From: Roseobacter sp.
GTDB lineage: Bacteria; Pseudomonadota; Alphaproteobacteria; Rhodobacterales; Rhodobacteraceae
Length of the DNA stretch: 32,814 nt
Reading direction: 5' to 3'
Assembly: GCA_011050655.1 (NCBI GenBank)
Contig: DRFG01000012.1
Span: 1 to 32,814 of the forward strand
Positions 978 to 32,176 of this stretch are shown in pieces. Position numbers and translations under genes: made by a program. Every line of letters begins with the position of its first letter. Position 1 is the stretch's first letter. The notes under the pieces are model-generated. The model saw only the letters and a program-made list of their open reading frames with translations, was not told the DNA's origin and searched no databases.

Positions 978-1943
978 TCATTCAGGGATCTGCTTCAACG
1001 TCAACTCTTCTGCGCTGGCAGGTACGAACCCGTAGGATGCATAGATGTCCTGTGCCGCTTCGCTTGACAGAAAATCTAGAAACAAGGCGGCGTTTTCAAG
1101 GTTGCGGCCTTCGACGAGCGTTCCTATGGCATAACTAACTTCGTCCTGCTTATTATAGGGCGCAGCAATGGCCACACCTTCTACATCGCGCCCCTCATCC
1201 ACTGCCTCCTTCACTTCAGTCGTCCAGACAATGCCGACGTCAGCAAGCCCGTCTTCAATCCGCTGCGGCGTTTCTCGATGATGACGGTCTGTAAACCAGA
1301 CTTTGCCTTCCACCGCCCAACACCCTTTACAGTCTTGCCCTCCAGTAACTTGGTCATAGAGACCGAGTTCCCGAAGCATCGGCACACCGTAAAATTTCAT
1401 AATGCCTTCGGTTTTAGGGTTGGGATGAGATTGAACGAGATCATCCCGGCCCAAATCCTCGGCACCAGAAATGTTCTTAGGATTGCCCTTGGCGACCATA
1501 AGTTCGAGTTTGTTGTGCGTATAGACTTTATATTCGGTCATTTTGCCTTTGGCAGCCAAGGCTTGGAGATGGCCAAGATTGACCGACGCGTAGAGATCAG
1601 GATTTTGCGCTGTGTCCTGGCCATTGATTTGTCCCTGTTTAAGAAGCTGACCGTTTACGATCTGCCCGGGCGGAATGGTTTCAACGTAGATCGATTTAAT
1701 ATCTAGGTTCTTACTTTGAAAGTCTTTGATAAGGTCTTCTATTACCATGAACTGGTTGCCGGCGAGATACATGACGAGATCCGCGGTATAACTGTCCCCA
1801 ATCTGTCCATAGCTAATATTGTCTGAGGTAAAAGTCCGGTAATCCTTGTTGCCGCCATCTTCGCTGTGTTCAGCCCCATACGCACTATTACTTAGGGCTA
1901 TAGTAAGACCCCCAATAGCTAACAATTCCTTGAAATAATTCAT
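978..1943 (-). CDS. Periplasmic substrate-binding protein (ModA/sulfate-binding-like), orphan
   Basis: MNYFKELLAIGGLTIALSNSAYGAE signal peptide with a GGAG Shine-Dalgarno before ATG at 1943. The body has PBP type II features (DLYASVNLGHLQALAAKGK, VGIVWTTEVKEAV, FLSSEAAQDIYASYGFVPA). Confidence 0.7.
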   Translation of the reverse strand: MNYFKELLAIGGLTIALSNSAYGAEHSEDGGNKDYRTFTSDNISYGQIGDSYTADLVMYLAGNQFMVIEDLIKDFQSKNLDIKSIYVETIPPGQIVNGQLLKQGQINGQDTAQNPDLYASVNLGHLQALAAKGKMTEYKVYTHNKLELMVAKGNPKNISGAEDLGRDDLVQSHPNPKTEGIMKFYGVPMLRELGLYDQVTGGQDCKGCWAVEGKVWFTDRHHRETPQRIEDGLADVGIVWTTEVKEAVDEGRDVEGVAIAAPYNKQDEVSYAIGTLVEGRNLENAALFLDFLSSEAAQDIYASYGFVPASAEELTLKQIPE

Positions 1944-2539
1944 TGTGCTCCTCCATTTCCCAATAAATTTGGATGGTTTCACAGTTTCCGACCAATGCAA
2001 GACATATGTTCATATCTTTGCCTATGAAGCAGGTCTCAGCTTGGTACAAACCCCGATGGAGCGCCTTGAATACTGCGCAAAGTTGCCAGGCGCATGAGTC
2101 GAGCCGTCGATCTGGAACTCAACCCCGGTCGATCAGTGATCAGCTGTATCCGGCGGTCTGGCTCGGACTTGGTAAGGTATAGCCAAGAAAAGCCATTTGC
2201 GAGGCTCTACCCGAGGTTCGAGGAAGCGACTCAGCATCGACCAGACCGGCATGGTCCTTGTTGGACAACCCGTCGAGCTGAGAGACCGCCTCCAGTCTGC
2301 ACAGCAAGCAGAATGCGTCCTGCCGCCCATGCTGCGCTGCGTGCGTCATTAGTCATTTTCTTGTCGAAGAAAACGCCCGCTCGGGCGTGACGAGGGCAGT
2401 CGCGACAGTGTTAAAGGCGGCTTTTAGAGCATGGTCTCGATCCATCACAAATACAAACTTCGCCTGGGCCTCGCCAATCATTTTCCGGACACGCGGGGCA
2501 TGCGCAAAGTGCATGCAATCTTGCTGGATCAATCTCTGG

Positions 2540-3655
2540 TCAAGTTTCGAGTTCGCCATTTGGCAAGCGGAACGTAAATACTGTCCGCTCGACATTGGAT
2601 GAGACATCCAAGCTGCCGCCATGTGTTTTGGCAATTTCGGAGGCAATATGTAGCCCCAGGCCCAACCCCCTCGGGTCGTCATGATTTGTGCTGCGGACAA
2701 ACGGATCAAACAACCGCTCCATCGCTGACGGCGGGATTGGTTTGCCACCATTCCAAACGCTGAGTTCGAGGCCGCCGTCCTTCAGAGCGCTACAGACCAC
2801 TCGGATGGGTTGCGCAGGGTCTCCATAGGTCAGCGCATTCCCCAATAGGTTCGACAAAAGTTGCCCAACGCGCCACACATCGCAACGAACGCTCTCTTGT
2901 TTCGAAATTTCCAATCGAATTTCACGCCCGGAATGTGCAGATCGAAGTTCCTCCACGACTTGCCTGATCTCGCGCTCCAATTCCTTGCCATCGGATAGGT
3001 TTAATTCGATGCCGCCCCCAAGACGGTTGCGCGTGAAATCAAGGACGTTGGCAATCAATAGCGACATGCGCTGAATGCTGCCTTGGGTCAGCTTGATGAT
3101 TTCTTTGCCACGATCACTAAGGGGTTCAGCCGACAACATGCGTGCGGCTGATGAGATCGACGTCAACGGATTGCGCAGATCATGCCCCAGAATTGCGATG
3201 AATTGCTCGCGTAACTCTCCTTCGCGCTGCTTCATTAACAACTGCGCTTGGGCTTCGGAACGCGCCATAGCAAGTTCGCGTTCAAAATTGCGACGTGCAT
3301 CCGCTAACAAGAAAACGAGAGTGGTAAGGCGCTGTGATCCTGTTCCGGTGGCTTCGGCGCTCAACAGTACGGGAATTTTTGCGCCGTTCTTCGCGCGAAG
3401 ATCAAGGCTGGCACCTTCCACTTGCCCTTTGAGGGTCAGCAGCGGTGCAATGCTTGTTTCAAATACAATCCTGCTGGCCATGCTGAAAAGATGTGTGACA
3501 TGCGACCCCTCAAGATCAGCGGTCGAGATCCCCAGCCATTCTCGCAACCTGTTGTTCGTTTCGAGAATGTTCCCTTCTTCGTCGAAGGTGAGATATCCGC
3601 AGGGAGCATTGTCAAAATTTCGCACGGTGGCTGAAATTTTTGCCGGGTTTGACAT
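2540..3655 (-). CDS. PAS-domain sensor histidine kinase
   Basis: Start MSNPAKISATVR at 3655, overlapping the upstream hydrolase stop. PAS-like N-terminus, H-box ILGHDLRNPLTSI, N-box LLSNLLGNALTYGD, G-box GLGLGLH. Confidence 0.88.
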   Translation of the reverse strand: MSNPAKISATVRNFDNAPCGYLTFDEEGNILETNNRLREWLGISTADLEGSHVTHLFSMASRIVFETSIAPLLTLKGQVEGASLDLRAKNGAKIPVLLSAEATGTGSQRLTTLVFLLADARRNFERELAMARSEAQAQLLMKQREGELREQFIAILGHDLRNPLTSISSAARMLSAEPLSDRGKEIIKLTQGSIQRMSLLIANVLDFTRNRLGGGIELNLSDGKELEREIRQVVEELRSAHSGREIRLEISKQESVRCDVWRVGQLLSNLLGNALTYGDPAQPIRVVCSALKDGGLELSVWNGGKPIPPSAMERLFDPFVRSTNHDDPRGLGLGLHIASEIAKTHGGSLDVSSNVERTVFTFRLPNGELET

Positions 3656-4443
3656 CAGACAAAGTCGCGTATTGCGGCGCTGACCTGATCGGGCGCTGTA
3701 AGATTGGGGCAATGACCAGAGGCATTCAGCATTACAAGCTTACTTTTGGGGATGTGATCACGGACGTATTCGCCCACCTGCTTTGAGGCGATGATGTCAT
3801 CGCGGCACTGCAATATGAGGGTGCTTGCAGTGATATTTGGAAGGTCGGCCCGATTGTCGGAGGTAAATGTCGCGCGAGCAAAGCCGTAGGCAATTTCCGG
3901 ATCAAGCTTGCAGAAGCTTTCTGCCAGTTCGTGCCCGAACTCCGGACGGTCTGGGTTGCCGATGATCGCAGGGCCCATCGAGGCAGACCAAGCAAGCGGA
4001 TTGTCCTTTAACGATGTTAGAAGATCATCGATGTCTTCGCCACTGAACCCGCCCACATAATCCGTGTCGTCAATATAGCGCGGGGAAGGACCAACCATGA
4101 CAAGCGTGCTGAACATCGCGGGTCTTTGCAAAGCGGCCAACGCGCCGATCATTGCGCTGACGGAGTGACCCACAAATATACCGTTCTCAATATTGAGCTC
4201 TTCGCCGATTTCGACGACATCCGCGGCGTAACCATCAAGCTTTGCATATTTGTCTGGATCATAGGCACTGGAATCAGATTCTCCCGCGCCGACGTAGTCG
4301 AAGGTTGTGACCTTAAATGTATCTTCGAATTGCGGTGCCACGTGGCGCCACATTGTCTGATCACATCCAAATCCATGTGCAAAGAGCATCACGCGTTCAC
4401 CTGAACCCGAGGTCTGAACGTTGTGCCGTGCAATCGCGCTCAT
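3655..4443 (-). CDS. Alpha/beta hydrolase, RsbQ/KAI2/D14-like
   Basis: FAHGFGCDQTMWRHVAP, nucleophile elbow VGHSVSAMIG, acid CRDD, catalytic His SGHCPNLTAP. Confidence 0.85.
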   Translation of the reverse strand: MSAIARHNVQTSGSGERVMLFAHGFGCDQTMWRHVAPQFEDTFKVTTFDYVGAGESDSSAYDPDKYAKLDGYAADVVEIGEELNIENGIFVGHSVSAMIGALAALQRPAMFSTLVMVGPSPRYIDDTDYVGGFSGEDIDDLLTSLKDNPLAWSASMGPAIIGNPDRPEFGHELAESFCKLDPEIAYGFARATFTSDNRADLPNITASTLILQCRDDIIASKQVGEYVRDHIPKSKLVMLNASGHCPNLTAPDQVSAAIRDFV

Positions 4444-4964: not shown

Positions 4965-6311
4965 TTAATGTTTTTCGCTTGGTCGTGGCGCAGTCCAGCG
5001 CGACAGATAAAGCCGCTGAAATACAAAGACTGCTGTGATCGCGATCACAGCGTAGACAACAATGAGCGGATCGGATTGCAGTTTCATCGACGTAAAGGCA
5101 ACCAGCACAACCGCGTCAAACACCAACGCCAAGACAATAATCAGCCCGTTTGCTTTCACCTCTTGCCGCATGAAGCGCAAAACGCCCCAATGCACGATCA
5201 TATCCATGACCAGATAAAAAAATGCTCCCAATGATGCAATCCGTGTTAGGTCAAAAAAGACTGCAAGGATCGATGCGATCACGACCGTATAAACCAGCGT
5301 GTGGCTACGGATTGGCCCCGACATGCCGAAATGCCGGTGCGGAATCATTTTCATCTCTGTGAGCATAGCCAGCATTCGGGAAACTGCGAAGACACTGGCC
5401 AGAACACCAGAGGCTGTTGCCACAGCCGCCAGCACGACGGTAAAATAGAACCCTGCGTTCCCAAGTGCAGGTGCTGCGGCCTCAGCCAATGAATAATCTT
5501 TGGCCGCTATAATCTGGTCTATCGTCAGGCTTGATCCGACCGCAAAGGCCACAATCAGATAGACAACAACACAGATCGCGATCGAGATGATGATTGTTCG
5601 GCCGACATTGCGGTGCGGATCAATGATCTCTCCACCGCTGTTAGTGATCGTGGTGAACCCCTTAAACGCAAGGATGGCCAGGGCCACAGATGCTATAAAT
5701 CCGGTGATATCAAACCCCGGAGACGAAGCGCTCGCCGCCGCGAATTGAAACCCGCTTGTCCAAAGTGCTGCTATGCCAAACAACGCGATGCCGCCAATCT
5801 TGAGCACTGCCATAATTAGTGAGAGTAGTCCGACCGATCGGCTACCGGCGATATTGACGAGAAAGGCAAAAAGGATCACGCCGACGGCAAGGATCGGCAC
5901 CAGCGGGCCGCCAGTAATGTCGAAGGGTCGCAGTACATAGGTCGCGAAGGTTCGCGCAACGAGGCTTTCGGAGATCACCATCGACAGCGCCATCAACAAG
6001 GCCGCCGCCGCGGCAACTGCTCCCGGCCCATACGCCTTTTGCAGGATCATAGCGATACCCCCCGAAGACGGAAAGGCGTTCGACATCTTTACGTAGCTGT
6101 ATGCACTGAAACTTGTGATGACCCCGCCCGCGACAAACGCTAATGGAAAGAGTGGTCCGGCCAGTTGCGCGATCTGGCCTGTCAGCGCGAAAATACCGGC
6201 ACCGACCATCACGCCGGTGCCCATCGCCACCCCGCCGCTCAGGCTTATGGAGCCTTTGTTCTCGTTGCGACTATCGTGGTTCTCGGTGTCGTCACCGTGT
6301 TGATGTTCCAC
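4965..6311 (-). CDS. APC-family amino acid/amine permease
   Basis: GVAMGTGVMVGAGIFALTGQIAQLAGPLFPLAFVAGG is a typical APC TM1 motif, followed by multiple hydrophobic helices. GTG start at 6311 (VEHQHGDD) with GAAGG upstream preferred over the long ATG ORF. Confidence 0.85.
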   Translation of the reverse strand: MEHQHGDDTENHDSRNENKGSISLSGGVAMGTGVMVGAGIFALTGQIAQLAGPLFPLAFVAGGVITSFSAYSYVKMSNAFPSSGGIAMILQKAYGPGAVAAAAALLMALSMVISESLVARTFATYVLRPFDITGGPLVPILAVGVILFAFLVNIAGSRSVGLLSLIMAVLKIGGIALFGIAALWTSGFQFAAASASSPGFDITGFIASVALAILAFKGFTTITNSGGEIIDPHRNVGRTIIISIAICVVVYLIVAFAVGSSLTIDQIIAAKDYSLAEAAAPALGNAGFYFTVVLAAVATASGVLASVFAVSRMLAMLTEMKMIPHRHFGMSGPIRSHTLVYTVVIASILAVFFDLTRIASLGAFFYLVMDMIVHWGVLRFMRQEVKANGLIIVLALVFDAVVLVAFTSMKLQSDPLIVVYAVIAITAVFVFQRLYLSRWTAPRPSEKH

Positions 6312-6506
6312 TAGGGTGCCTTCGTTTTTCAATATGTTGCAGGTTTTGTCAGGGTATAGACGATCCAGCAGGCAATCCAGTGCTAGAGCTATCCAGAAAC
6401 ATATGCCCGGTTTCGCACAACAGATATGCATAATGATGTGCAACTGTCGGGCGAGACCGGCCCTATCTGTGCGGACATCGCGGCCTGTAGCAGGTTCCGC
6501 GTTGGA

Positions 6507-6671
6507 TCAACTACAGCAACATCTACCCGATCTTGCCGCAGGCGCTTTGACGGATGCCCGTGGTGCAGCAGGGGCATCTATGCCTTGGCTGGCCTTGTTT
6601 CCACCGCAGCATCCGCCGCCTTTGGCAGTTTCAACTGAAGATTGGTCGATTTTGGTCGTTGTGTGGTTCAT
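6507..6671 (-). CDS. Small Cys-rich protein (54 aa), putative metal binding
   Basis: MNHTTTKIDQSSVETAKGGGCCGGNKASQGIDAPAAPRASVKAPAARSGRCCCS*. AGGAGG lies 6 nt upstream of ATG at 6671. Not in the supplied ORF track (under 60 aa). Confidence 0.5.
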   Translation of the reverse strand: MNHTTTKIDQSSVETAKGGGCCGGNKASQGIDAPAAPRASVKAPAARSGRCCCS

Positions 6672-7195: not shown

Positions 7196-7498
7196 TCAGT
7201 GGCACCGAGACGGTTGTCTGGGTCGACTGGCTGCCCAGACGGAGTGGCGGATACGAGCGGTTTTATACGCGTCGTAGATCGCGATTGCATAGACGAACAG
7301 GCCGCCCGACAGCTTGCCAACAAGTGACACGCCAGGTGCCGCAGTCTGAAGCGTAAAGCCGCCCAGCAGTAATATAAAGAACACGAAGACTAGACCACGT
7401 ACAGGCTGTCGATTCAGCACCTGGCCTGAGGCTGGCAGGATAATCGCCGAAGCCAGCACTAGGTGCGGGTTTACTGTGGCGCGAGACACAATACTCAT
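7196..7498 (-). CDS. Conserved hypothetical membrane protein
   Basis: Two hydrophobic segments (LVLASAIILPASGQVL, GLVFVFFILLLGGFTL) and ATGA overlap with the upstream 232-aa gene. Confidence 0.65.
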   Translation of the reverse strand: MSIVSRATVNPHLVLASAIILPASGQVLNRQPVRGLVFVFFILLLGGFTLQTAAPGVSLVGKLSGGLFVYAIAIYDAYKTARIRHSVWAASRPRQPSRCH

Positions 7499-8193
7499 GC
7501 GCGTAAGCCTTGCACTTCGGCTGTTTCGACATTCAGTACATCCGCGCGCAGGGCGATCAGTTGATCCAGCTTGGGCTTCAGAAGGTCGGGTGCCAGAGGC
7601 GTGACGCCCATCTCTGCGTCTCGGTAGATCAGATAGCGGCTGCGCTGCGCCTCTTCGGCCAGAAACACGATGCGCACGCCCTTGGGGGAGATCACCAGTT
7701 CCTTAACTTTCTGATCGTCGAAAATATGCAGGTGAGCTCTCACCAGCTCCTCGGGTGGCATATGAGCGCGGCTGTCAGTTCGAATCGCGCAATCGTCGGG
7801 AAAATCATCGGGCCGTTCCAACTGATGTGTCAGCGACTGAAACCGCGAGAAGGGTTCTATCCCGGTCGGACGGATCATCAGGTTTATCGTGGCGCTCACC
7901 GGCAGAGTGCCGGGCAGCGTCACCAGCACCCAAAGCGCGGGTAGCTTGCGGAAGGTCAGCGTGTCGGGCAGCACTTGGATATCCGCCTCGACCCCCTGAT
8001 GATGCCCACCCAGTCGGGCGAATCCGCTGTTTCCGCGCCCCATACGTGGCGCATCCAGCAGGGCGCGGCAGGCATCAAGGTAGCGCGTGCGCTGCGTAAT
8101 TCTCTGGACCGATGCGCGGCGCAAGTGCTGCACCAGCAGAACAAACAGTATAGCGGCCCCTACCAAAATTGCACCAGTGACAAATCGGTCCAT
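7495..8193 (-). CDS. Hypothetical membrane-anchored protein
   Basis: 232 aa, N-terminal TM GAILVGAAILFVLLVQHL then a soluble domain; ATGA-coupled to the 100-aa downstream ORF. Confidence 0.7.
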   Translation of the reverse strand: MDRFVTGAILVGAAILFVLLVQHLRRASVQRITQRTRYLDACRALLDAPRMGRGNSGFARLGGHHQGVEADIQVLPDTLTFRKLPALWVLVTLPGTLPVSATINLMIRPTGIEPFSRFQSLTHQLERPDDFPDDCAIRTDSRAHMPPEELVRAHLHIFDDQKVKELVISPKGVRIVFLAEEAQRSRYLIYRDAEMGVTPLAPDLLKPKLDQLIALRADVLNVETAEVQGLRA

Positions 8194-8208: not shown

Positions 8209-8240
8209 AAAGAGGTCGGCCCGCGGAAGGAGCGGGCCGG
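8209..8240 (-). terminator. Intrinsic terminator after the ethanolamine-permease-like gene
   Basis: Reverse strand: CGGCCCGC-TCCTTCC-GCGGGCCG (8-bp perfect stem, 8217-8239) followed by ACCTCTTTTTTCCC. Confidence 0.8.
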
Positions 8241-8253
8241 TTATCCGTTTGTA

Positions 8254-9669
8254 TCAGTAGCCGCGCGGCCTAGGCCACGGCATCGTGAACTGCGCAGCCC
8301 GCCGCACAAAGCGGTAGCGCCAGAAGTGGAACCAAAGCGACACGATGATGTAGAAAGATAGCATCGCCACCAGTTGTGAGCCGTAGCCGAGGAATACAGC
8401 AAAGAACGTCACCCCGCACAGGCACAACAGAATGATCGCCGGGATCGGGTGGAACGGATGCTCATACCCCCGCTTGATCGTGTCCAGCGGCCATTTACGG
8501 CGGAATAAGATCACGTTCATCGGCATGAAAGTATAACCCAAAAGGCCCGACAGGATCGAGAATGTGATCACCTGATCCAAAGGCGCACCCAAGGCAAAAA
8601 CCAACGCGATTGGCACAAGAAAGATAATCGACCTATAAGGTGTGCGAAATTTGGGATGCACCGCGCCGAACCAGTCGGGTAAATAGTGATCACGTCCCAT
8701 GGCGAACCACGCCCGACTGGCATCATTGATGCAACCGTTGGCCGAAGCTAGCGTGGCGAACATCGTGCCGACACCCAAAAGCACCATCAGCGTCATCGAA
8801 CCCGACAGACGTGCCGCGTCAAACAGAGGAACACCCGCTTGGCCCAAATACTCCCAAGGCATAAGCCCAACGCTAACATACCATGTCAGCGTCGCCGCAA
8901 TCAGCAGTGTCATGATACCGGCAAGCGTACCAAAGGGCAGCGCGCGCGCGGGCGACCGGACCTCTTCTGCCGCTTGGCAGGTACCTTCGATCCCGAGGTA
9001 ATACCACAGGCCGAAATGCATCGCCGCCAGGACACCCAGCCAGCCATAGGGCAGATCTGTCATTAACTCGACATGGCGCAACGGGCTGTCAGACATAAAG
9101 ACCGCCGTCGACAGAAAGAGCGCAATGATCGCGCAAAAGGCGAACGCCGTGATAACTAAACTAAAGGTCAGTGTTGCCAGAACACCGCGATAGTTTAGCC
9201 ATGCCAGAAACATGATCGACAAAATGATAAAAGGCCTCTGATCGAGGCCCTCATGTCCGGTCATGCCGGCCACTGTATCTATCAAGAAGCCGAACGTGAT
9301 CGCATTTGCCGCCTCCAGCATCGTATAGGCAAAGACCAAATAGAGGCCGACGTTGAAGGCCATCAACGGGCCGACAATATGTTTGGCCTGCGTGTACTGG
9401 CCGCCTGCTGCGGCGACAGTCGACGTCACCTCGCTGTCAATCATAGCGACGCAGGAATAAAGTATGCCGGCGAACCAGCAAGCAAGCAATGCAGCATACG
9501 CGCCGCCTTTGCCGACCGCAAAATTCCAGCCCATGTATTCGCCCACAAGGACGATCCCCACGCCAAGTCCCCAAATATGCGCCGGCCCCAATACCCGCGC
9601 TAGACCTAGCTTGGTTCCTTTGGGGCCCATTCCATCCATTTCGGCAGATGTGATATCGGTATTAGACAT
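8254..9669 (-). CDS. APC-superfamily permease, ethanolamine-permease-like
   Basis: 471 aa; GLARVLGPAHIWGLGVGIVLVGEYMGWNFAVGKGGAYAALLACWFAGILYSC matches the ethanolamine permease type N-terminus. Confidence 0.8.
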   Translation of the reverse strand: MSNTDITSAEMDGMGPKGTKLGLARVLGPAHIWGLGVGIVLVGEYMGWNFAVGKGGAYAALLACWFAGILYSCVAMIDSEVTSTVAAAGGQYTQAKHIVGPLMAFNVGLYLVFAYTMLEAANAITFGFLIDTVAGMTGHEGLDQRPFIILSIMFLAWLNYRGVLATLTFSLVITAFAFCAIIALFLSTAVFMSDSPLRHVELMTDLPYGWLGVLAAMHFGLWYYLGIEGTCQAAEEVRSPARALPFGTLAGIMTLLIAATLTWYVSVGLMPWEYLGQAGVPLFDAARLSGSMTLMVLLGVGTMFATLASANGCINDASRAWFAMGRDHYLPDWFGAVHPKFRTPYRSIIFLVPIALVFALGAPLDQVITFSILSGLLGYTFMPMNVILFRRKWPLDTIKRGYEHPFHPIPAIILLCLCGVTFFAVFLGYGSQLVAMLSFYIIVSLWFHFWRYRFVRRAAQFTMPWPRPRGY

Positions 9670-9683
9670 CTTATTTTCCCCGT

Positions 9684-9851
9684 TCAGAGTTGTTGTTCTT
9701 CGGTCATCGCCTCAAGCTCACCCTCGCGCGAGGACATAAGTTCCTCTTCGCTGTAGGTGCTGTCGGTTTTGATCCAGTCGATGACAATATATAGCCCAAA
9801 AACGATCGAAAGACCCCAAGCGGTGTATTCCATGACATTCCAGATATCCAT
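9684..9851 (-). CDS. Small single-TM protein (55 aa)
   Basis: MDIWNVMEYTAWGLSIVFGLYIVIDWIKTDSTYSEEELMSSREGELEAMTEEQQL; starts 13 nt after the previous stop, ends 14 nt before the permease start. Confidence 0.6.
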   Translation of the reverse strand: MDIWNVMEYTAWGLSIVFGLYIVIDWIKTDSTYSEEELMSSREGELEAMTEEQQL

Positions 9852-9864
9852 GTTCAGTCCCTGC

Positions 9865-10245
9865 TCACTTGTCGCCAAATTTTTCAGAAATCACTTCTCT
9901 ATACTCCTTGCCGGAGAACCGCAGCACGATGGCATAATAGCCGACGACGACGACGATCATCACGAGAAGGTTCAGGATTGAGAAGGAGTAATCAAAACGT
10001 GCTGTGATCAGTTCGGCCGCGTCCGCAGCAGTGGCGTAGCCGAGCTCGTTCCATTTCTCGACCATAGTGGGGTTTTGCCCCAAGCCTTCCCACGTGGGGT
10101 TGTCCGGAACATTTGAGGTTTGTGCGCTACCGACCAAGTTCAAGAATAGCGGCACATAAAGCGCGCCAACCGCCAAAACCAACAGCACGATCACGTCGAT
10201 GATCTGGCTGATCTTGCTTTGGACGGGGGGGATGTAGTTTGCCAT
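9865..10245 (-). CDS. Small membrane protein (126 aa, two predicted TM)
   Basis: TM-like IIDVIVLLVLAVGALYVPLFLNLV and FSILNLLVMIVVVVGYYAIVL flanking a polar loop; tight operon spacing. Confidence 0.7.
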   Translation of the reverse strand: MANYIPPVQSKISQIIDVIVLLVLAVGALYVPLFLNLVGSAQTSNVPDNPTWEGLGQNPTMVEKWNELGYATAADAAELITARFDYSFSILNLLVMIVVVVGYYAIVLRFSGKEYREVISEKFGDK

Positions 10246-10256
10246 ATCCGGCCCTT

Positions 10257-10547
10257 TCAGCGTTTTTTCTGGGCACGGGCGAGATCAAGAAACTTGATGT
10301 CCAGCCCGTACATGAAATCACGATCCTCGCGGTAATGGCGCAACATGGCGAAGATCGCTGCAGTATTGAGGACCAGAATGGTCGCCCCACCGATCAGCAG
10401 TACCAAACGCGCCGTGCTGCTAGGCGCCAAATTCCACGTCGCCAGCGCGACAAAGATGATGGCCAGCCAAAGACCGACTACAAAAGCCCAGGCGACGGCG
10501 ATATCGCGGCTGTGCATCTTTCTGATACGCTCGGTAAGATCTGGCAT
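10257..10547 (-). CDS. Small membrane protein (96 aa, two predicted TM)
   Basis: TM-like AVAWAFVVGLWLAIIFVALATW and LVLLIGGATILVLNTAAIFAML; first gene of a tight four-gene operon. Confidence 0.7.
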   Translation of the reverse strand: MPDLTERIRKMHSRDIAVAWAFVVGLWLAIIFVALATWNLAPSSTARLVLLIGGATILVLNTAAIFAMLRHYREDRDFMYGLDIKFLDLARAQKKR

Positions 10548-10640
10548 TTGACTCTCCCATTGGCTGTTTTGTGCTACGCTTCTTTACATGGCGTAATTTA
10601 TTATCAGTAAAACTATTGTCCTGTCAGGAGTGCATAGCCT

Positions 10641-10677
10641 GTGACATTATGTCAAGCTTGACAAATCTGAATGTCAC
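10641..10677. promoter_or_regulatory. Clustered palindromic operator candidate
   Basis: GTGACATTATGTCAAGCTTGACAAATCTGAATGTCAC contains perfect TGTCAAGCTTGACA (10650-10663), TGACAT-T-ATGTCA (10642-10654) and outer arms GTGACATT/AATGTCAC. Confidence 0.6.
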
Positions 10678-26022: not shown

Positions 26023-27621
26023 ATGGTTACAACAAACGTAAATGCCGCGCCGAGAGGCGACACGGGGAGTTTGCATCGAACGATCGGCTGGAAAGATGCC
26101 TTTTGGATGGCCTCGGGCGTGCCTGCTCTGGTGCTGTTTTCCATCGGTGGCATCGCCGCGACCGTCGGCAATCCATCTTGGATAATCTGGATGCTTTCGG
26201 TTTCCTTCGGTTTCCTGCAAGCTTTCGTTTACGCTGAAATCGCGGGCCTTTTCCCCAGCAAATCGGGCGGGGCATCGGTCTATGGTGCCGCTGCTTGGGT
26301 GCGCTACTCCAAGGTAATCGCGCCCCTTTCGGTCTGGTGTAATTGGCTGGCATGGACGCCGGTTCTGGCCATTGGTGGCGGGCTTGCGGCGGGGTATGTT
26401 CTGACATCCCTTATGGGTGCCGATGCCGCCATTAATACATGGCAGATCACCCTCCTTAATCTTGATTTCCTAAACGCAGGTCTAACGCTACGAATAAACG
26501 CGACTTCGATCGTCGGGACGGTGATTCTGCTTTTGGTCTTTGTCGCGCAGCATCACGGAATTTCGCGCGCGGCCAAAATTCAGACGATCATGGGCATCGC
26601 CGTGATGATCCCTCTATTGATTGTCGGAATTGTGCCAATTCTTTCCGGTGACGTCGTCACAGCGAACCTGTTTCCAGTCGTTCCCAGCACCGGATCGTGG
26701 GACATCGAAGGCACGACCTTGTTTCTCGGCGGTCTCTTCATCGCTGCTTGGTCTGCCTATGCGTTTGAAACCGCGATCTGCTACACCAGTGAATTCCGCG
26801 ACCCGCAACGCGACACCGTGCGTGCGATCATCGCCGCTGGTGTGGTCTGTATCGTGATTTACACGCTGGTGCCTCTGAGCTTTCAGGGCGTTCTGGGTGT
26901 CGAAGGCATGCTGGAACCGGGCATTGTCGATGGCTCTGCCGTCGCTGGTGCCATGGCGGGAATGGTCGGCGGTGGCTCTATTGTCGCCAAGATCATGGTC
27001 GTAATGCTGTTTCTCGCATTGGTTCTGGCGATCATGACCTCGATGGCAGGGTCTTCCCGGACGCTCTATCAAGGGTCCGTCGATGGATGGTTGCCAAAAT
27101 ATCTGTCCCGCACCAACGAACATGGCGCGCCGGTCAACGGGATGTGGACAGATCTGGGGTTCAACCTGATCTTGTTGATGATGTCCGACTATTTGTTTGT
27201 TCTTGCTGTTTCAAACTGCTGCTATCTGGTATTTAACTTCCTGAACCTCCACTCTGGCTGGCTCCACCGCATTGATAACGCCAATGCGAAAAGACCTTGG
27301 AAAGCGCCGACCTTTCTGCTGTGGATCGGGGGCGGACTTGCTTTCGTGAACGCAGTCCTACTGGGGGCCGGTGCCAACGTTTGGGGCGAAGGCACGCTGC
27401 GTTCCGCGATTATCGCGATTGCTGTCATCCTACCGGTATTTGCCTATCGTCATTACGTTACTGACAAAGGCCAGTTCCCCACCAACATGCTTGAAGATCT
27501 TGCAGTAGGCGGCAATCCCGACATCACCGTTCGCAAAGCCGGAATGAAACCGTACATCACGCTTGCGGCCGGTCTGGCCGTGGTTGTCATCTCAAACCAG
27601 ATTTTCCAGCTGGGGGGTTAG
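26023..27621 (+). CDS. APC-family permease, divergent from the dmm operon
   Basis: 532 aa, many hydrophobic helices: VPALVLFSIGGIAATVGNPSWIIWMLSVSFGFLQAFVYAEIAGLFPSKSGGASVYGAAAW. Amine substrate inferred from context only. Confidence 0.82.
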   Translation: MVTTNVNAAPRGDTGSLHRTIGWKDAFWMASGVPALVLFSIGGIAATVGNPSWIIWMLSVSFGFLQAFVYAEIAGLFPSKSGGASVYGAAAWVRYSKVIAPLSVWCNWLAWTPVLAIGGGLAAGYVLTSLMGADAAINTWQITLLNLDFLNAGLTLRINATSIVGTVILLLVFVAQHHGISRAAKIQTIMGIAVMIPLLIVGIVPILSGDVVTANLFPVVPSTGSWDIEGTTLFLGGLFIAAWSAYAFETAICYTSEFRDPQRDTVRAIIAAGVVCIVIYTLVPLSFQGVLGVEGMLEPGIVDGSAVAGAMAGMVGGGSIVAKIMVVMLFLALVLAIMTSMAGSSRTLYQGSVDGWLPKYLSRTNEHGAPVNGMWTDLGFNLILLMMSDYLFVLAVSNCCYLVFNFLNLHSGWLHRIDNANAKRPWKAPTFLLWIGGGLAFVNAVLLGAGANVWGEGTLRSAIIAIAVILPVFAYRHYVTDKGQFPTNMLEDLAVGGNPDITVRKAGMKPYITLAAGLAVVVISNQIFQLGG

Positions 27622-27759: not shown

Positions 27760-28689
27760 ATGTGTGGGATCGTAGGGCTCTTTCTGAAAGATAAATCTCT
27801 TGAACCGCAGTTGGGCAAAATGCTGACTGACATGCTGATCACGATGACGGACCGGGGACCCGACAGTGCGGGTATCGCGATCTATGGCAACGAGTCCGGC
27901 GGCATGGCCAAGCTCACCGTGCAATCCGACAATGCAGACGTAGATTTTGCCACAATCGGCGATGATCTGGGTAAATTGATCAACGCCAGTGTCTCGTCAC
28001 TCCGCAAAGACACCCACGCGGTATTGTTGCTGCCCAACGATAAGTTAGCCCACGCCCGCGAGGCGCTGCGCGACATTCGGCCCGATGTGCGGATCATGAG
28101 TTCGGGCGAATCGCTTGAGATCTACAAAGAAGTTGGCTTGCCTCGGGATGTGGCGCGCCGCTTTGAGGTCGAGAAGATGACAGGTACCCATGGCATCGGC
28201 CATACACGGATGGCCACCGAGTCGGCGGTGACCACCATGGGTGCGCATCCATTCAACACCGGCCCGGATCAGTGCTTGGTGCATAACGGGTCGCTGTCGA
28301 ACCACAATTCCCTGCGTCGCAAACTCCGCCGCAACGGGATCCATATCGAAACCGAGAATGACACCGAAGTCGGCGCGGCCTATCTGACATGGAAAATGCA
28401 GAATGGCGCGACTTTGGGCGAGGCGCTCAAGTCTTCGCTGGAGGATCTGGACGGGTTTTTTACATTCGTCGTAGGTACCAAGGACGGTTTTGGCGTCGTG
28501 CGTGACCCGATTGCCTGCAAACCGGCTGTGATGGCCGAAACTGATCAGTATGTGGCTTTTGGCAGCGAATATCGCGCGTTGGTCAACCTGCCCGGCATCG
28601 AAACCGCCCGCGTCTGGGAACCTGAGCCCGCCACCGTCTATTTTTGGTCGCATAATGATGGCCCAACCAAACTTGAGGAAGCCGCCTGA
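27760..28689 (+). CDS. mgsA: N-methylglutamate synthase subunit A (class II glutamine amidotransferase-like)
   Basis: MCGIVGLFLKDKS...TDRGPDSAGIAIYG with N-terminal Cys; GIGHTRMATESAVT; next to GXGXG and FMN glutamate-synthase-like genes. Confidence 0.87.
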   Translation: MCGIVGLFLKDKSLEPQLGKMLTDMLITMTDRGPDSAGIAIYGNESGGMAKLTVQSDNADVDFATIGDDLGKLINASVSSLRKDTHAVLLLPNDKLAHAREALRDIRPDVRIMSSGESLEIYKEVGLPRDVARRFEVEKMTGTHGIGHTRMATESAVTTMGAHPFNTGPDQCLVHNGSLSNHNSLRRKLRRNGIHIETENDTEVGAAYLTWKMQNGATLGEALKSSLEDLDGFFTFVVGTKDGFGVVRDPIACKPAVMAETDQYVAFGSEYRALVNLPGIETARVWEPEPATVYFWSHNDGPTKLEEAA

Positions 28690-28690
28690 A

Positions 28691-29374
28691 ATGCAAGTAT
28701 TTGACCTTGAGGCAGAGGGGCTACGCGCCCTCAATGAAACCTTACACGCCCAGAACGCCCAGACCAATCAGACGTCATGGGAGATCGTGAACGCAAAGGG
28801 CAGTCACGCCATTGCTGTCGGTCTAGACGCGCCCATCGAAGTAACGGTCAAGGGTTCAACCGGCTACTACTGCGGTGGCATGAACAAGCAGGCCACGATC
28901 AACGTGCATGGCTCTGCTGGCCCCGGCGTAGGCGAAAACATGATGTCCGGCACGATCATCATTGAGGGCGATGCCAGCCAATATGCTGGTGCCACCGGCC
29001 ACGGCGGATTGCTTGTCATCAAAGGCAATGCCTCCTCGCGTTGCGGCATTTCGATGAAGGGCATCGACATTGTCGTTCACGGCAACATCGGCCACATGTC
29101 TGCCTTCATGGCGCAATCAGGCAATCTCGTGGTGCTGGGTGATGCAGGCGATGCTCTTGGCGACAGCTGTTACGAAGCGCGGCTGTTCGTTCGCGGTACG
29201 GTCAAGAGCCTCGGGGCAGATTGCGAGAAAAAGGAAATGCGCCCCGAACACATCGAAATCCTGAAGGATTTGCTGGAACGTGCGGGTGCCGACGCCAAAC
29301 CTGAAGAATTCTCCCGCTATGGCTCGGCCCGCAATCTATATAATTTTGACGTCGATAACGCGTCGGCCTACTAA
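28691..29374 (+). CDS. mgsB: N-methylglutamate synthase subunit B (GXGXG domain, GltB C-terminal-like)
   Basis: GGMNKQATINVHGSAGPGVGENMMSGTIIIEGDASQYAGATGHGGLLVIKGNASSRCG beta-helix repeats; ATG at 28691. Confidence 0.87.
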   Translation: MQVFDLEAEGLRALNETLHAQNAQTNQTSWEIVNAKGSHAIAVGLDAPIEVTVKGSTGYYCGGMNKQATINVHGSAGPGVGENMMSGTIIIEGDASQYAGATGHGGLLVIKGNASSRCGISMKGIDIVVHGNIGHMSAFMAQSGNLVVLGDAGDALGDSCYEARLFVRGTVKSLGADCEKKEMRPEHIEILKDLLERAGADAKPEEFSRYGSARNLYNFDVDNASAY

Positions 29375-29379
29375 GGAAT

Positions 29380-30726
29380 ATGTCCATGAACGATCAGGAT
29401 CACAAAGGTATCCCACGGACCACGCCGCGCCAATCCGCAACATTCAGCCAGGACGTTAATAGTGACATCCGCCGCGCTGCGGCGACAGGCATCTACGACA
29501 TCCGCGGCGGCGGTGCGAAACGTCGCGTGCCAAACTTCGACGACCTACTCTTTATGGGCGCGTCTATTTCACGCTATCCCCTCGAGGGCTACCGCGAAAA
29601 ATGTGACACTAAAGTTACCCTTGGTACGCGCTTTGCCAAGAACCCCATCGAACTTGATATCCCGATCACCATCGCCGGAATGAGTTTTGGCGCGTTGTCC
29701 GGCCCTGCCAAGGAAGCACTGGGGCGCGGTGCCAGTGCGGCTGGGACATCAACGACCACAGGCGACGGTGGCATGACCCCCGAAGAACGCGGGCATTCCA
29801 CCAAGCTGGTCTATCAGTACCTGCCGTCACGCTATGGTATGAACCCTGATGATCTACGCAAAGCCGACGCAATTGAGATTGTAGTGGGTCAGGGTGCAAA
29901 ACCGGGCGGCGGCGGCATGTTGTTGGGTCAGAAGATTTCTGACCGTGTGGCCGAGATGCGCAATCTCCCCAAGGGCATCGACCAACGCTCCGCCTGTCGC
30001 CACCCCGATTGGACCGGACCTGACGATTTGGAAATCAAAATACTGGAATTGCGTGAAATCACCGGCTGGCGCGTGCCGATCTATGTAAAAATCGCAGGTG
30101 CGCGGCCCTATTTCGACACCACCCTGGCGGTAAAGGCTGGTGCGGACGTTGTGGTTCTGGATGGGATGCAGGGCGGCACCGCTGCGACGCAAGATGTGTT
30201 CATCGAACACGTCGGACAGCCCACTTTGGCCTGCATCCGCCCTGCCGTTCAGGCATTGCAGGACCTGGGAATGCACCGTGAAGTACAGCTCGTCATCTCT
30301 GGAGGTATCAGGTCGGGGGCAGATGTGGCGAAGGCATTGGCACTGGGTGCAGACGCCGTCGCCATCGGCACGGCCGCCCTGATCGCGTTGGGCGACAACG
30401 ACCCTAAATGGGAAGAAGAATACAACAAGCTGGGTACAACCGCCGGAGCCTATGACGACTGGCACGAAGGCCGCGACCCCGCTGGCATCACCACGCAGGA
30501 CCCAGAGCTCATGAAACGCTTTAATCCTATCGAGGGGGGGCGGCGTCTCAAGAATTACCTCAAGGTAATGACGCTGGAGGCACAAACCATCGCACGGGCC
30601 TGCGGCAAGAACCATATGCACAATCTGGAACCGGAAGATCTGGTTGCATTAACAATGGAAGCGGCGGCGATGGCGCAAGTGCCGTTGGCCGGGACCAATT
30701 GGTACCCAGGAAAGGGAAACTTCTGA
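29380..30726 (+). CDS. mgsC: N-methylglutamate synthase subunit C (FMN-binding glutamate synthase domain)
   Basis: PITIAGMSFGALSGPAKEALGRGASAAGTSTTTGDGGM..., VVLDGMQGGTAATQDVFIEHVG, ISGGIRSGADVAKALALGADAVAIGTAAL. Confidence 0.9.
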   Translation: MSMNDQDHKGIPRTTPRQSATFSQDVNSDIRRAAATGIYDIRGGGAKRRVPNFDDLLFMGASISRYPLEGYREKCDTKVTLGTRFAKNPIELDIPITIAGMSFGALSGPAKEALGRGASAAGTSTTTGDGGMTPEERGHSTKLVYQYLPSRYGMNPDDLRKADAIEIVVGQGAKPGGGGMLLGQKISDRVAEMRNLPKGIDQRSACRHPDWTGPDDLEIKILELREITGWRVPIYVKIAGARPYFDTTLAVKAGADVVVLDGMQGGTAATQDVFIEHVGQPTLACIRPAVQALQDLGMHREVQLVISGGIRSGADVAKALALGADAVAIGTAALIALGDNDPKWEEEYNKLGTTAGAYDDWHEGRDPAGITTQDPELMKRFNPIEGGRRLKNYLKVMTLEAQTIARACGKNHMHNLEPEDLVALTMEAAAMAQVPLAGTNWYPGKGNF

Positions 30727-30736
30727 GGACTGTGAT

Positions 30737-30766
30737 AAACGGCGCACCTGTCTGGGTGCGCCGTTT
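30737..30766. other. Strong stem-loop between mgsC and gmaS
   Basis: AAACGGCGCACC-tgtctg-GGTGCGCCGTTT, perfect 12-bp stem; no clear extended T-tract. Confidence 0.7.
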
Positions 30767-30832
30767 GGCATTTCCACGATATATGACGGTTAAAAAAACG
30801 ATAGTAACAAAACAGGGATAGGATTTCAGGTA

Positions 30833-32176
30833 ATGCCAATGGATCAAAATGTCTGCTTGGCAGACTACGCCGCAGAACGTGGCGTCAAATACTTTATGAT
30901 CTCGTTTACCGATCTTTTGGGATCGCAGAGAGCCAAGCTTGTACCGACGCGTGCCATTGCAGATATGCAAAACAACGGCGCAGGGTTTGCAGGGTTTGCC
31001 ACGTATCTAGACCTGACGCCGGCCCACCCCGATATGCTGGCTGTGCCCGACGCAAGCGCAGTGATTCAGCTTCCCTGGAAGCCCGAAATCGCCTGGGTAC
31101 CCGGAAACTGCATCATGGATGGTCAGGATTTGGCGCAAGCCCCCCGCAACGTCCTAAGGCGGCTGATCCGCGAAGCGGCTGATGAGGGTATGCATGTCAA
31201 AACGGGCATTGAAGCCGAATTCTTTCTGCTGACCCCGGAAGGCACTGCGCTTTCAGACACATTGGATACTGCAGCTAAGCCCTGTTACGATCAGCAGGCT
31301 ATGATGCGCAGCTACGAAGTGATCCGCGAGATTAGCGATTATATGCTCGAAATGGGCTGGGGGGCCTACCAGAGCGACCACGAAGATGCCAACGGCCAGT
31401 GGGAAATGAACTGGGATTTTGACGATGCGTTGACCATCGCGGATCAACACAGTTTTTTCAAGTTCATGACCAAAACCGTCGCCGAAAAGCACGGCTTACG
31501 CGCCACGTTCATGCCCAAACCCGTCCAAGGGCTGACCGGAAACGGATGCCACGCGCATATTTCGGTCTGGGATGCGCCGGGTGAGCAGGCGAAAACCAAT
31601 GTGTTCGCCGGCGAAGTCGGCGAAAGCGAAACTGCGCAGCTCGGTTTGTCAGAGAAAGGCTCGCACTTTCTTGGTGGCATCATGAAACACGCAAGCGCTC
31701 TTGCCGCAATTACCAATCCGACAGTGAACAGCTTCAAGCGCATCAATGCGCCGCGCACCTCTTCGGGTGCGACGTGGGCCCCCAACAGCGTGACATGGAC
31801 TGGCAACAACCGGACCCATATGGTTCGGGTGCCCGGTCCTGGACGGTTCGAACTGCGCCTGCCCGATGGCGCTGTGAACCCTTATCTTTTGCAGGCTGTC
31901 ATCATCGCCGCCGGTCTCGATGGCGTGCGCACCAAGGCCCACCCCGGAAAGCGGCATGATATCGACATGTATGCTGAAGGGCATACCATCACCGATGCGC
32001 CCAAGCTACCGCTGAACATGCTCGACGCGTTGCGCGAGTATGACAAGGACAGTGGCTTGAAAGAAGCGATGGGGACAGAGTTTTCAGCGGCCTATCTCAA
32101 GCTGAAACACAAAGAGTGGAACGATTTCGCAAGTCATTTCACAGAGTGGGAAAGACAACACACGCTGGATATCTGA
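30833..32176 (+). CDS. gmaS: Gamma-glutamylmethylamide synthetase (glutamine synthetase family)
   Basis: 447 aa GS fold: EAEFFLLTPEG, NGCHAHISVWD, NSFKRINAPRTSSGATWAPNSVTWTGNNRTHMVRVPGPGRFELRLPDGAVNPYL. Directly downstream of mgsABC. Confidence 0.87.
   Translation: MPMDQNVCLADYAAERGVKYFMISFTDLLGSQRAKLVPTRAIADMQNNGAGFAGFATYLDLTPAHPDMLAVPDASAVIQLPWKPEIAWVPGNCIMDGQDLAQAPRNVLRRLIREAADEGMHVKTGIEAEFFLLTPEGTALSDTLDTAAKPCYDQQAMMRSYEVIREISDYMLEMGWGAYQSDHEDANGQWEMNWDFDDALTIADQHSFFKFMTKTVAEKHGLRATFMPKPVQGLTGNGCHAHISVWDAPGEQAKTNVFAGEVGESETAQLGLSEKGSHFLGGIMKHASALAAITNPTVNSFKRINAPRTSSGATWAPNSVTWTGNNRTHMVRVPGPGRFELRLPDGAVNPYLLQAVIIAAGLDGVRTKAHPGKRHDIDMYAEGHTITDAPKLPLNMLDALREYDKDSGLKEAMGTEFSAAYLKLKHKEWNDFASHFTEWERQHTLDI

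Follow-up and report, generated by a model that had tools for sequence, protein, structure and literature searches.

A conserved six-gene block around an APC-superfamily permease is tied to methylated-amine catabolism and is a candidate uptake system for methylated amines

What does a permease carry when its gene is packed together with genes for small membrane proteins of no recognized family, and do these proteins take part in the transport? The question is raised by a contig of Roseobacter sp. (DRFG01000012.1, assembly GCA_011050655.1), of which positions 1 to 32,814 of the forward strand were analyzed (32,814 nt, hereafter the window). On the minus strand of the window, genes for proteins of 96 aa (S96, gene 1, 10257-10547), 126 aa (S126, gene 2, 9865-10245), and 55 aa (S55, gene 3, 9684-9851, with an ATG start) precede the gene for PERM (gene 4, 8254-9669), a 471-aa permease of the APC superfamily and a candidate methylated-amine transporter. 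The minus-strand ORF map gives gaps of 11, 13, and 14 nt between them, and the first-pass annotation, made from the sequence alone, had described the series in just this way. That annotation took the four genes, which are real, as the full extent of the operon, but the conserved unit comprises six genes: D232 (gene 5, 7495-8193, minus strand), a 232-aa protein with an N-terminal TM helix and a soluble beta-rich domain, and D100 (gene 6, 7196-7498, minus strand), a 100-aa membrane protein whose gene shares 4 nt with the end of D232, had been overlooked past a terminator. The intrinsic terminator itself, placed at 8209-8240 in the first pass, is borne out as a minus-strand stem-loop between genes 4 and 5 (8217-8239; eight pairs, all GC, and a loop of 7) followed by the T-rich tail ACCTCTTTTT. 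Unannotated equivalents of D232 and D100 lie downstream of the permease in the Paracoccus aminophilus plasmid pAMI6, Pseudohalocynthiibacter, Aminobacter, and S. meliloti. Gene 5 of P. aminophilus begins one base past the permease stop, and thus the genes there look like one operon. In the window, the terminator may tune the expression of D232 and D100.

At the other end of the block, a palindrome cluster had been noted upstream of S96 (10641-10677), and it is present as TGACATTATGTCA at 10642 and TGTCAAGCTTGACA at 10650, neither of which is found elsewhere in the window. The hexamer TTGACA lies within TGTCAAGCTTGACA (10650-10663), and because this palindrome overlaps the -35 element, the region (10627-10663, minus strand) is probably a promoter with an overlying operator. 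Of the 103 regions that precede gene 1 in relatives, 75 contain CTTGACA, versus 2 in shuffled controls. Several relatives have, by eye, a TTTCCT hexamer 17 bases after TTGACA; at this position, 17 nt after TTGACA, the window has CACTCC, and a second -35/-10-like pair is located at 10627-10600.

Purifying selection acts on all six genes of the block. When the window is compared with four close relatives, dN of the block genes is 0.05-0.20 versus dS of 0.5-2.7 (dN/dS of S96 is about 0.1). Since dN is far below dS in these relatives, the small ORFs are coding and constrained, not chance ORFs. Co-occurrence of the small genes with the permease, on which the first-pass annotation had staked its proposal beforehand, is conserved. 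Among 397 genomes of the family, about one per genus, there are 15 close permeases (82-100% identity, the window's own included) and one further, distant permease (29% identity); in the wider class, more distant members of the clade have 64-67% identity, and beyond these identity drops to about 30%. The three small genes adjoin the permease in all 15 close genomes, in one of which the contig ends inside the 96-aa gene. A contig scan identified 495 relatives of the permease, and the best 80 of these, i.e., the closest ones, were examined; nearly all of these 80 come from Rhodobacterales. In these best 80 of 495 loci, the partner genes are always inherited with the permease: S96, S126, and S55 are found in 76 of the 76 loci with room upstream, and D232 and D100 in 77 of the 77 loci with room downstream. 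The family genomes and the 80 loci overlap partly (for example, genome G069 is also locus L082) and are not independent samples. Among 72,556 plasmids, PERM, S126, S96, and D232 each match 22 records from the same seven genera and in the same numbers, with nine records from Aminobacter and six from Sinorhizobium that are not independent of each other. With S126, S96, and D232 as queries, the plasmid collection gave no extra records, i.e., no small genes without the permease. In two loci, on plasmids of Pseudohalocynthiibacter (L046) and Aminobacter (L047), the block has none but unrelated genes around it, for homogentisate degradation among others, as if it were a self-contained mobile cassette.

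The tie of the block to methylated amines is firm. In most relatives, synteny places mgsABC and gmaS, the genes for monomethylamine assimilation, directly next to the block. Neighbors were counted in the 55 loci, from the best 80 of 495, that have flanks of 7 kb or more on either side: mgsC was found in 43 of them, gmaS in 42, an XRE-cupin regulator in 31, a TmoP-like permease in 20, dmm genes in 8, and tdm in 6. The mgs-gmaS neighborhood extends to distant relatives (class-level genomes and S. meliloti); the S. meliloti block is placed between a regulator and gmaS, and the Paraburkholderia block has dmmD and a TmoP-like gene after it. In the window, mgsABC and gmaS occupy 27760-32176 on the plus strand (Pfam/NCBIfam matches and synteny, with gmaS called as a type III glutamine synthetase in this context). 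The segment 11309-32176 is a nearly complete methylated-amine island, which contains tdm, a LysR gene, sarcosine-oxidase-type soxB, soxA, and soxG, two regulators, four dmm genes, tmoP, mgsABC, and gmaS.

Whole genomes give a similar picture: in the one-genome-per-genus sample, every genome that carries the permease has methylated-amine genes. Among the 15 carriers, mgsC is present in 14, versus 123 of 397 genomes overall (Fisher p 5e-7), and tdm in 12, versus 96 of 397 (p 5e-6); the permease is found in none of the family genomes that lack both mgsC and tdm. Elsewhere in the genome, mgsC was found in 13 of 14 named genomes, most of which were picked for the absence of mgs nearby, and two near-complete genomes that carry PERM (G341 and G443) have no Tdm above the cut-off. 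The comparisons show that the block consists of six real genes, that these are inherited together as one unit, and that they are linked to the catabolism of methylated amines. On the other hand, 109 of the 123 family genomes with mgsC do not have the block; the pathway thus does not require it, and other entry routes exist. Rhizobium sp. CCGE531 groups a TmoP-like gene, tdm, dmm, and gmaS-mgs without the block, and the block has unrelated neighbors at its closest relatives (L079-L081), in several Paracoccus, and on Aminobacter plasmids. The first-pass annotation had used the adjacent tdm as a clue to the substrate and proposed an amine, a quaternary amine, or an N-oxide. The amine class is supported. 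Proximity to tdm, however, is local and limited to few genomes (6 of 55 loci versus 43 for mgsC), and monomethylamine is a likelier substrate than a quaternary amine or N-oxide, with the TMAO permease being a separate gene of the window. Because tdm is enriched at the genome level too, the assignment of monomethylamine rests mainly on position.

PERM represents a separate clade of the APC superfamily. It passes the superfamily models PF13520 (107 bits versus 27, E-value 1.4e-30) and PF00324 (98 versus 24.6), and the Pfam scan found only these two and no PF00909 (AmtB/Amt/Rh). It had been described as ethanolamine-permease-like, and TIGR00908 is indeed its nearest named family, with which it shares the TM1 motif G[ED]xxGW and the TM6 motif EG...AxEE. 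Identity as an ethanolamine permease, however, is ruled out by the family cut-off of 381.75 bits, of which PERM reaches less than half (176.8 bits; 174.1 for the distant member L075). PERM is 26-28% identical to members of that family and has no ethanolamine genes nearby, and in the loci seen (L044) true members are without the small genes of the block. TmoP, the TMAO permease of Methylocella silvestris (Zhu et al. 2014, as cited in PMC4543880), is, like PERM, an APC-superfamily permease in methylated-amine gene clusters. Unlike TmoP, PERM has no match to NF053774 (curated cut-off 690) at E-values up to 1, and it has no tblastn match to TmoP-like loci at 1e-4. A different gene of the window, outside the block (26023-27621, plus strand), passes NF053774 with 838 bits, and PERM was ruled out as TmoP; in S. 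meliloti, the APC gene next to tdm passes this model as well (841 bits).

Two glutamates, E44 in TM1 (GE[YF]MGWN) and E228 in TM6 (GIEG), are conserved in the PERM family within motifs common to ethanolamine permeases. In an alignment to solved bacterial amino-acid transporters (5oqt and 6f34), the TM1 motif of PERM aligns with their GTGIF. In such transporters this segment holds the carboxylate of the substrate, and its replacement would fit a substrate that is a small amine and has no carboxylate. In a PDB sequence search, PERM matches chains of LAT1 and b0,+AT and, among the weaker matches, AdiC. The same genome has two AmtB-type genes (PF00909) on other contigs. A third APC permease is encoded in the window by a 492-aa ORF (4965-6443, minus strand); no curated equivalog scored above its cut-off, and no match was found in the neighborhoods of the best 80 of 495 related loci. 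Upstream of it lies a 54-aa cysteine-rich ORF (6507-6671, minus strand; GGGCCGG in the middle and CCCS at the end) that has no NCBIfam match. Further along, a SBP_bac_11/molybdate-like solute-binding protein (978-2000, minus strand) is encoded near a PAS histidine kinase (2540-3712).

The putative partners of PERM are equally hard to place. By hydropathy, S96 and S126 (the latter with a loop some 50 residues long) have two TM-like segments each, and S55 has a single one, in agreement with the one or two hydrophobic segments per protein reported in the first pass. No family had been recognized for these three proteins by eye, and profile (HMM) scans against Pfam and NCBIfam gave the same result, with none above the cut-off. 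Their conserved parts include the C-terminal motif HYREDRDFMYGLDIKFLD in the family alignment of S96, a C-terminal EYREVIxEKFG in S126, and the tail YSEExLTSSREGE in S55. AlphaFold models S126 as a membrane protein of two helices whose global arrangement is poorly determined (pTM 0.37), and a structure search with this weak model found no PDB match. The model of D232 (pLDDT 91.8) comprises an N-terminal helix, a beta-rich domain, and a long C-terminal helix. D232 belongs to no family in the Pfam scan and has no match in a PDB sequence search and no convincing relative in a structure search; its best structural matches, 7tm3 chain 4 (E-value 9.6e-5) and TtfA 6t84 (E-value 1.6e-3), have TM-scores of merely 0.26-0.35, and therefore no function was taken from them. 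In the D100 family, 10-11 of 16 members have weak Pfam similarity to DUF5683/DUF6677, which the Pfam scan did not find in the window copy. In S. meliloti Ak57 (L048, 7824-9398), S55 runs in frame into the permease; since the adjacent S126 frame is also disturbed and no other locus looks like this, we rejected a natural S55-PERM fusion and put the read-through down to sequence noise or to a peculiarity of this strain.

Carriers with a small membrane partner are known among SSS symporters (with DUF4212), in ActP (with DUF485/YjcH), and in the eukaryotic heteromeric SLC7-SLC3 transporters. The block resembles these systems only in the way it might work, as an APC/LeuT-fold carrier with a small TM partner: they have one partner, whereas the block would have up to five, and its small proteins match none of those families. 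In particular, PF04341 (DUF485) and PF13937 (DUF4212) are absent from the Pfam scans of S55, S126, and S96 and of the relatives of S126 and S96.

The joint travel of six genes, usually beside methylamine-digesting genes, suggests that the block is probably a dedicated machine for methylamine uptake. In full, the reading that we favor is of one dedicated methylated-amine uptake system, most likely for methylammonium, in which the small proteins are obligate partners, and from genome comparison we give it slightly under an even chance (roughly 0.48). PERM would be a secondary transporter of the APC fold, with a binding site for a small cationic amine that has no carboxylate. It would form a complex with the small membrane proteins as its obligate partners, in the role of stabilizing or regulatory subunits, and membrane-anchored D232 might act as an assembly or control factor. 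The imported methylamine would then be fixed by GmaS and MgsABC, which are encoded next door in most genomes. We infer the substrate, the direction (uptake, not export), and the physical complex. This reading is favored by the complete co-inheritance upstream and downstream of the permease, by mgs adjacency, and by the presence of TmoP as a separate TMAO permease in the window; it is disfavored by the enrichment of tdm as well, the many mgsC genomes without the block, the two AmtB-type genes, the unrelated neighbors at some loci, and the terminator between genes 4 and 5. Only tentatively do we propose a new architecture of secondary transport, in which an APC-fold transporter works solely when complexed with dedicated small membrane subunits, up to five in number, and serves as a non-AmtB importer of methylammonium.

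Several other readings have to be considered. The same module could have a different or broader methylated-amine substrate, such as dimethylamine, trimethylamine, gamma-glutamylmethylamide, or N-methylglutamate. The dmm genes near some of the blocks, the arrangement in Paraburkholderia, and the enrichment of the whole methylated-amine pathway, not of mgs alone, in permease carriers make this a possibility worth keeping, if a rather unlikely one, but mgs-gmaS is by far the commonest neighbor, in distant lineages included, and an amine-binding-type TM1 without the amino-acid motif would disfavor the last two compounds. It is less likely still that PERM acts alone and that the small genes are co-transcribed for a different task within methylamine metabolism, such as membrane stress, the handling of formaldehyde or pH, or the assembly of a different membrane enzyme. 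Most characterized bacterial APC transporters function without a partner, and D232 and D100 do lie beyond a terminator in the window; however, if the small genes had a separate job, some permease-less loci would be expected, and the plasmid searches revealed none.

Methylamine breakdown releases ammonium and the APC superfamily includes antiporters, one of which, AdiC, is among the weaker matches of PERM. An exchanger or exporter is thus conceivable, which would bring methylamine in against ammonium or remove excess ammonium or amine, but no sequence feature is specific to exchange, and we consider this quite improbable. That PERM is TmoP or an ethanolamine permease after all is hardly credible: superfamily membership, the tdm gene adjoining the window copy, and the nearest named family are outweighed by the profile scores and by the assignment of TmoP to another gene of the window and to the gene beside tdm in S. 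meliloti.

Dedicated uptake of methylamine by the block would matter beyond this organism, as methylated amines serve as a source of nitrogen in the sea and feed the aerosols that form clouds (PMC13390433, PMC5520151). In the gmaS-mgsABC-amt clusters of Pseudomonas sp. C5pp, methylamine enters by an inner-membrane amt-type transporter (PMC8292978). Such an AmtB-type transporter occupies the same place beside gmaS-mgsABC as the block and would do the same job, but it belongs to an unrelated family (PF00909, whereas PERM is PF13520). In the searchable literature, methylamine import other than by ammonium channels is not settled, and we found no description of the block in the literature on APC accessory subunits and methylamine permeases. 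A compact cassette whose permease has 495 relatives in one genome collection makes non-channel import of methylamine testable, and the block assigns a candidate job to several unannotated protein families. If the small proteins are indeed subunits, the view that bacterial APC permeases are machines made of a single protein would have to be revised.
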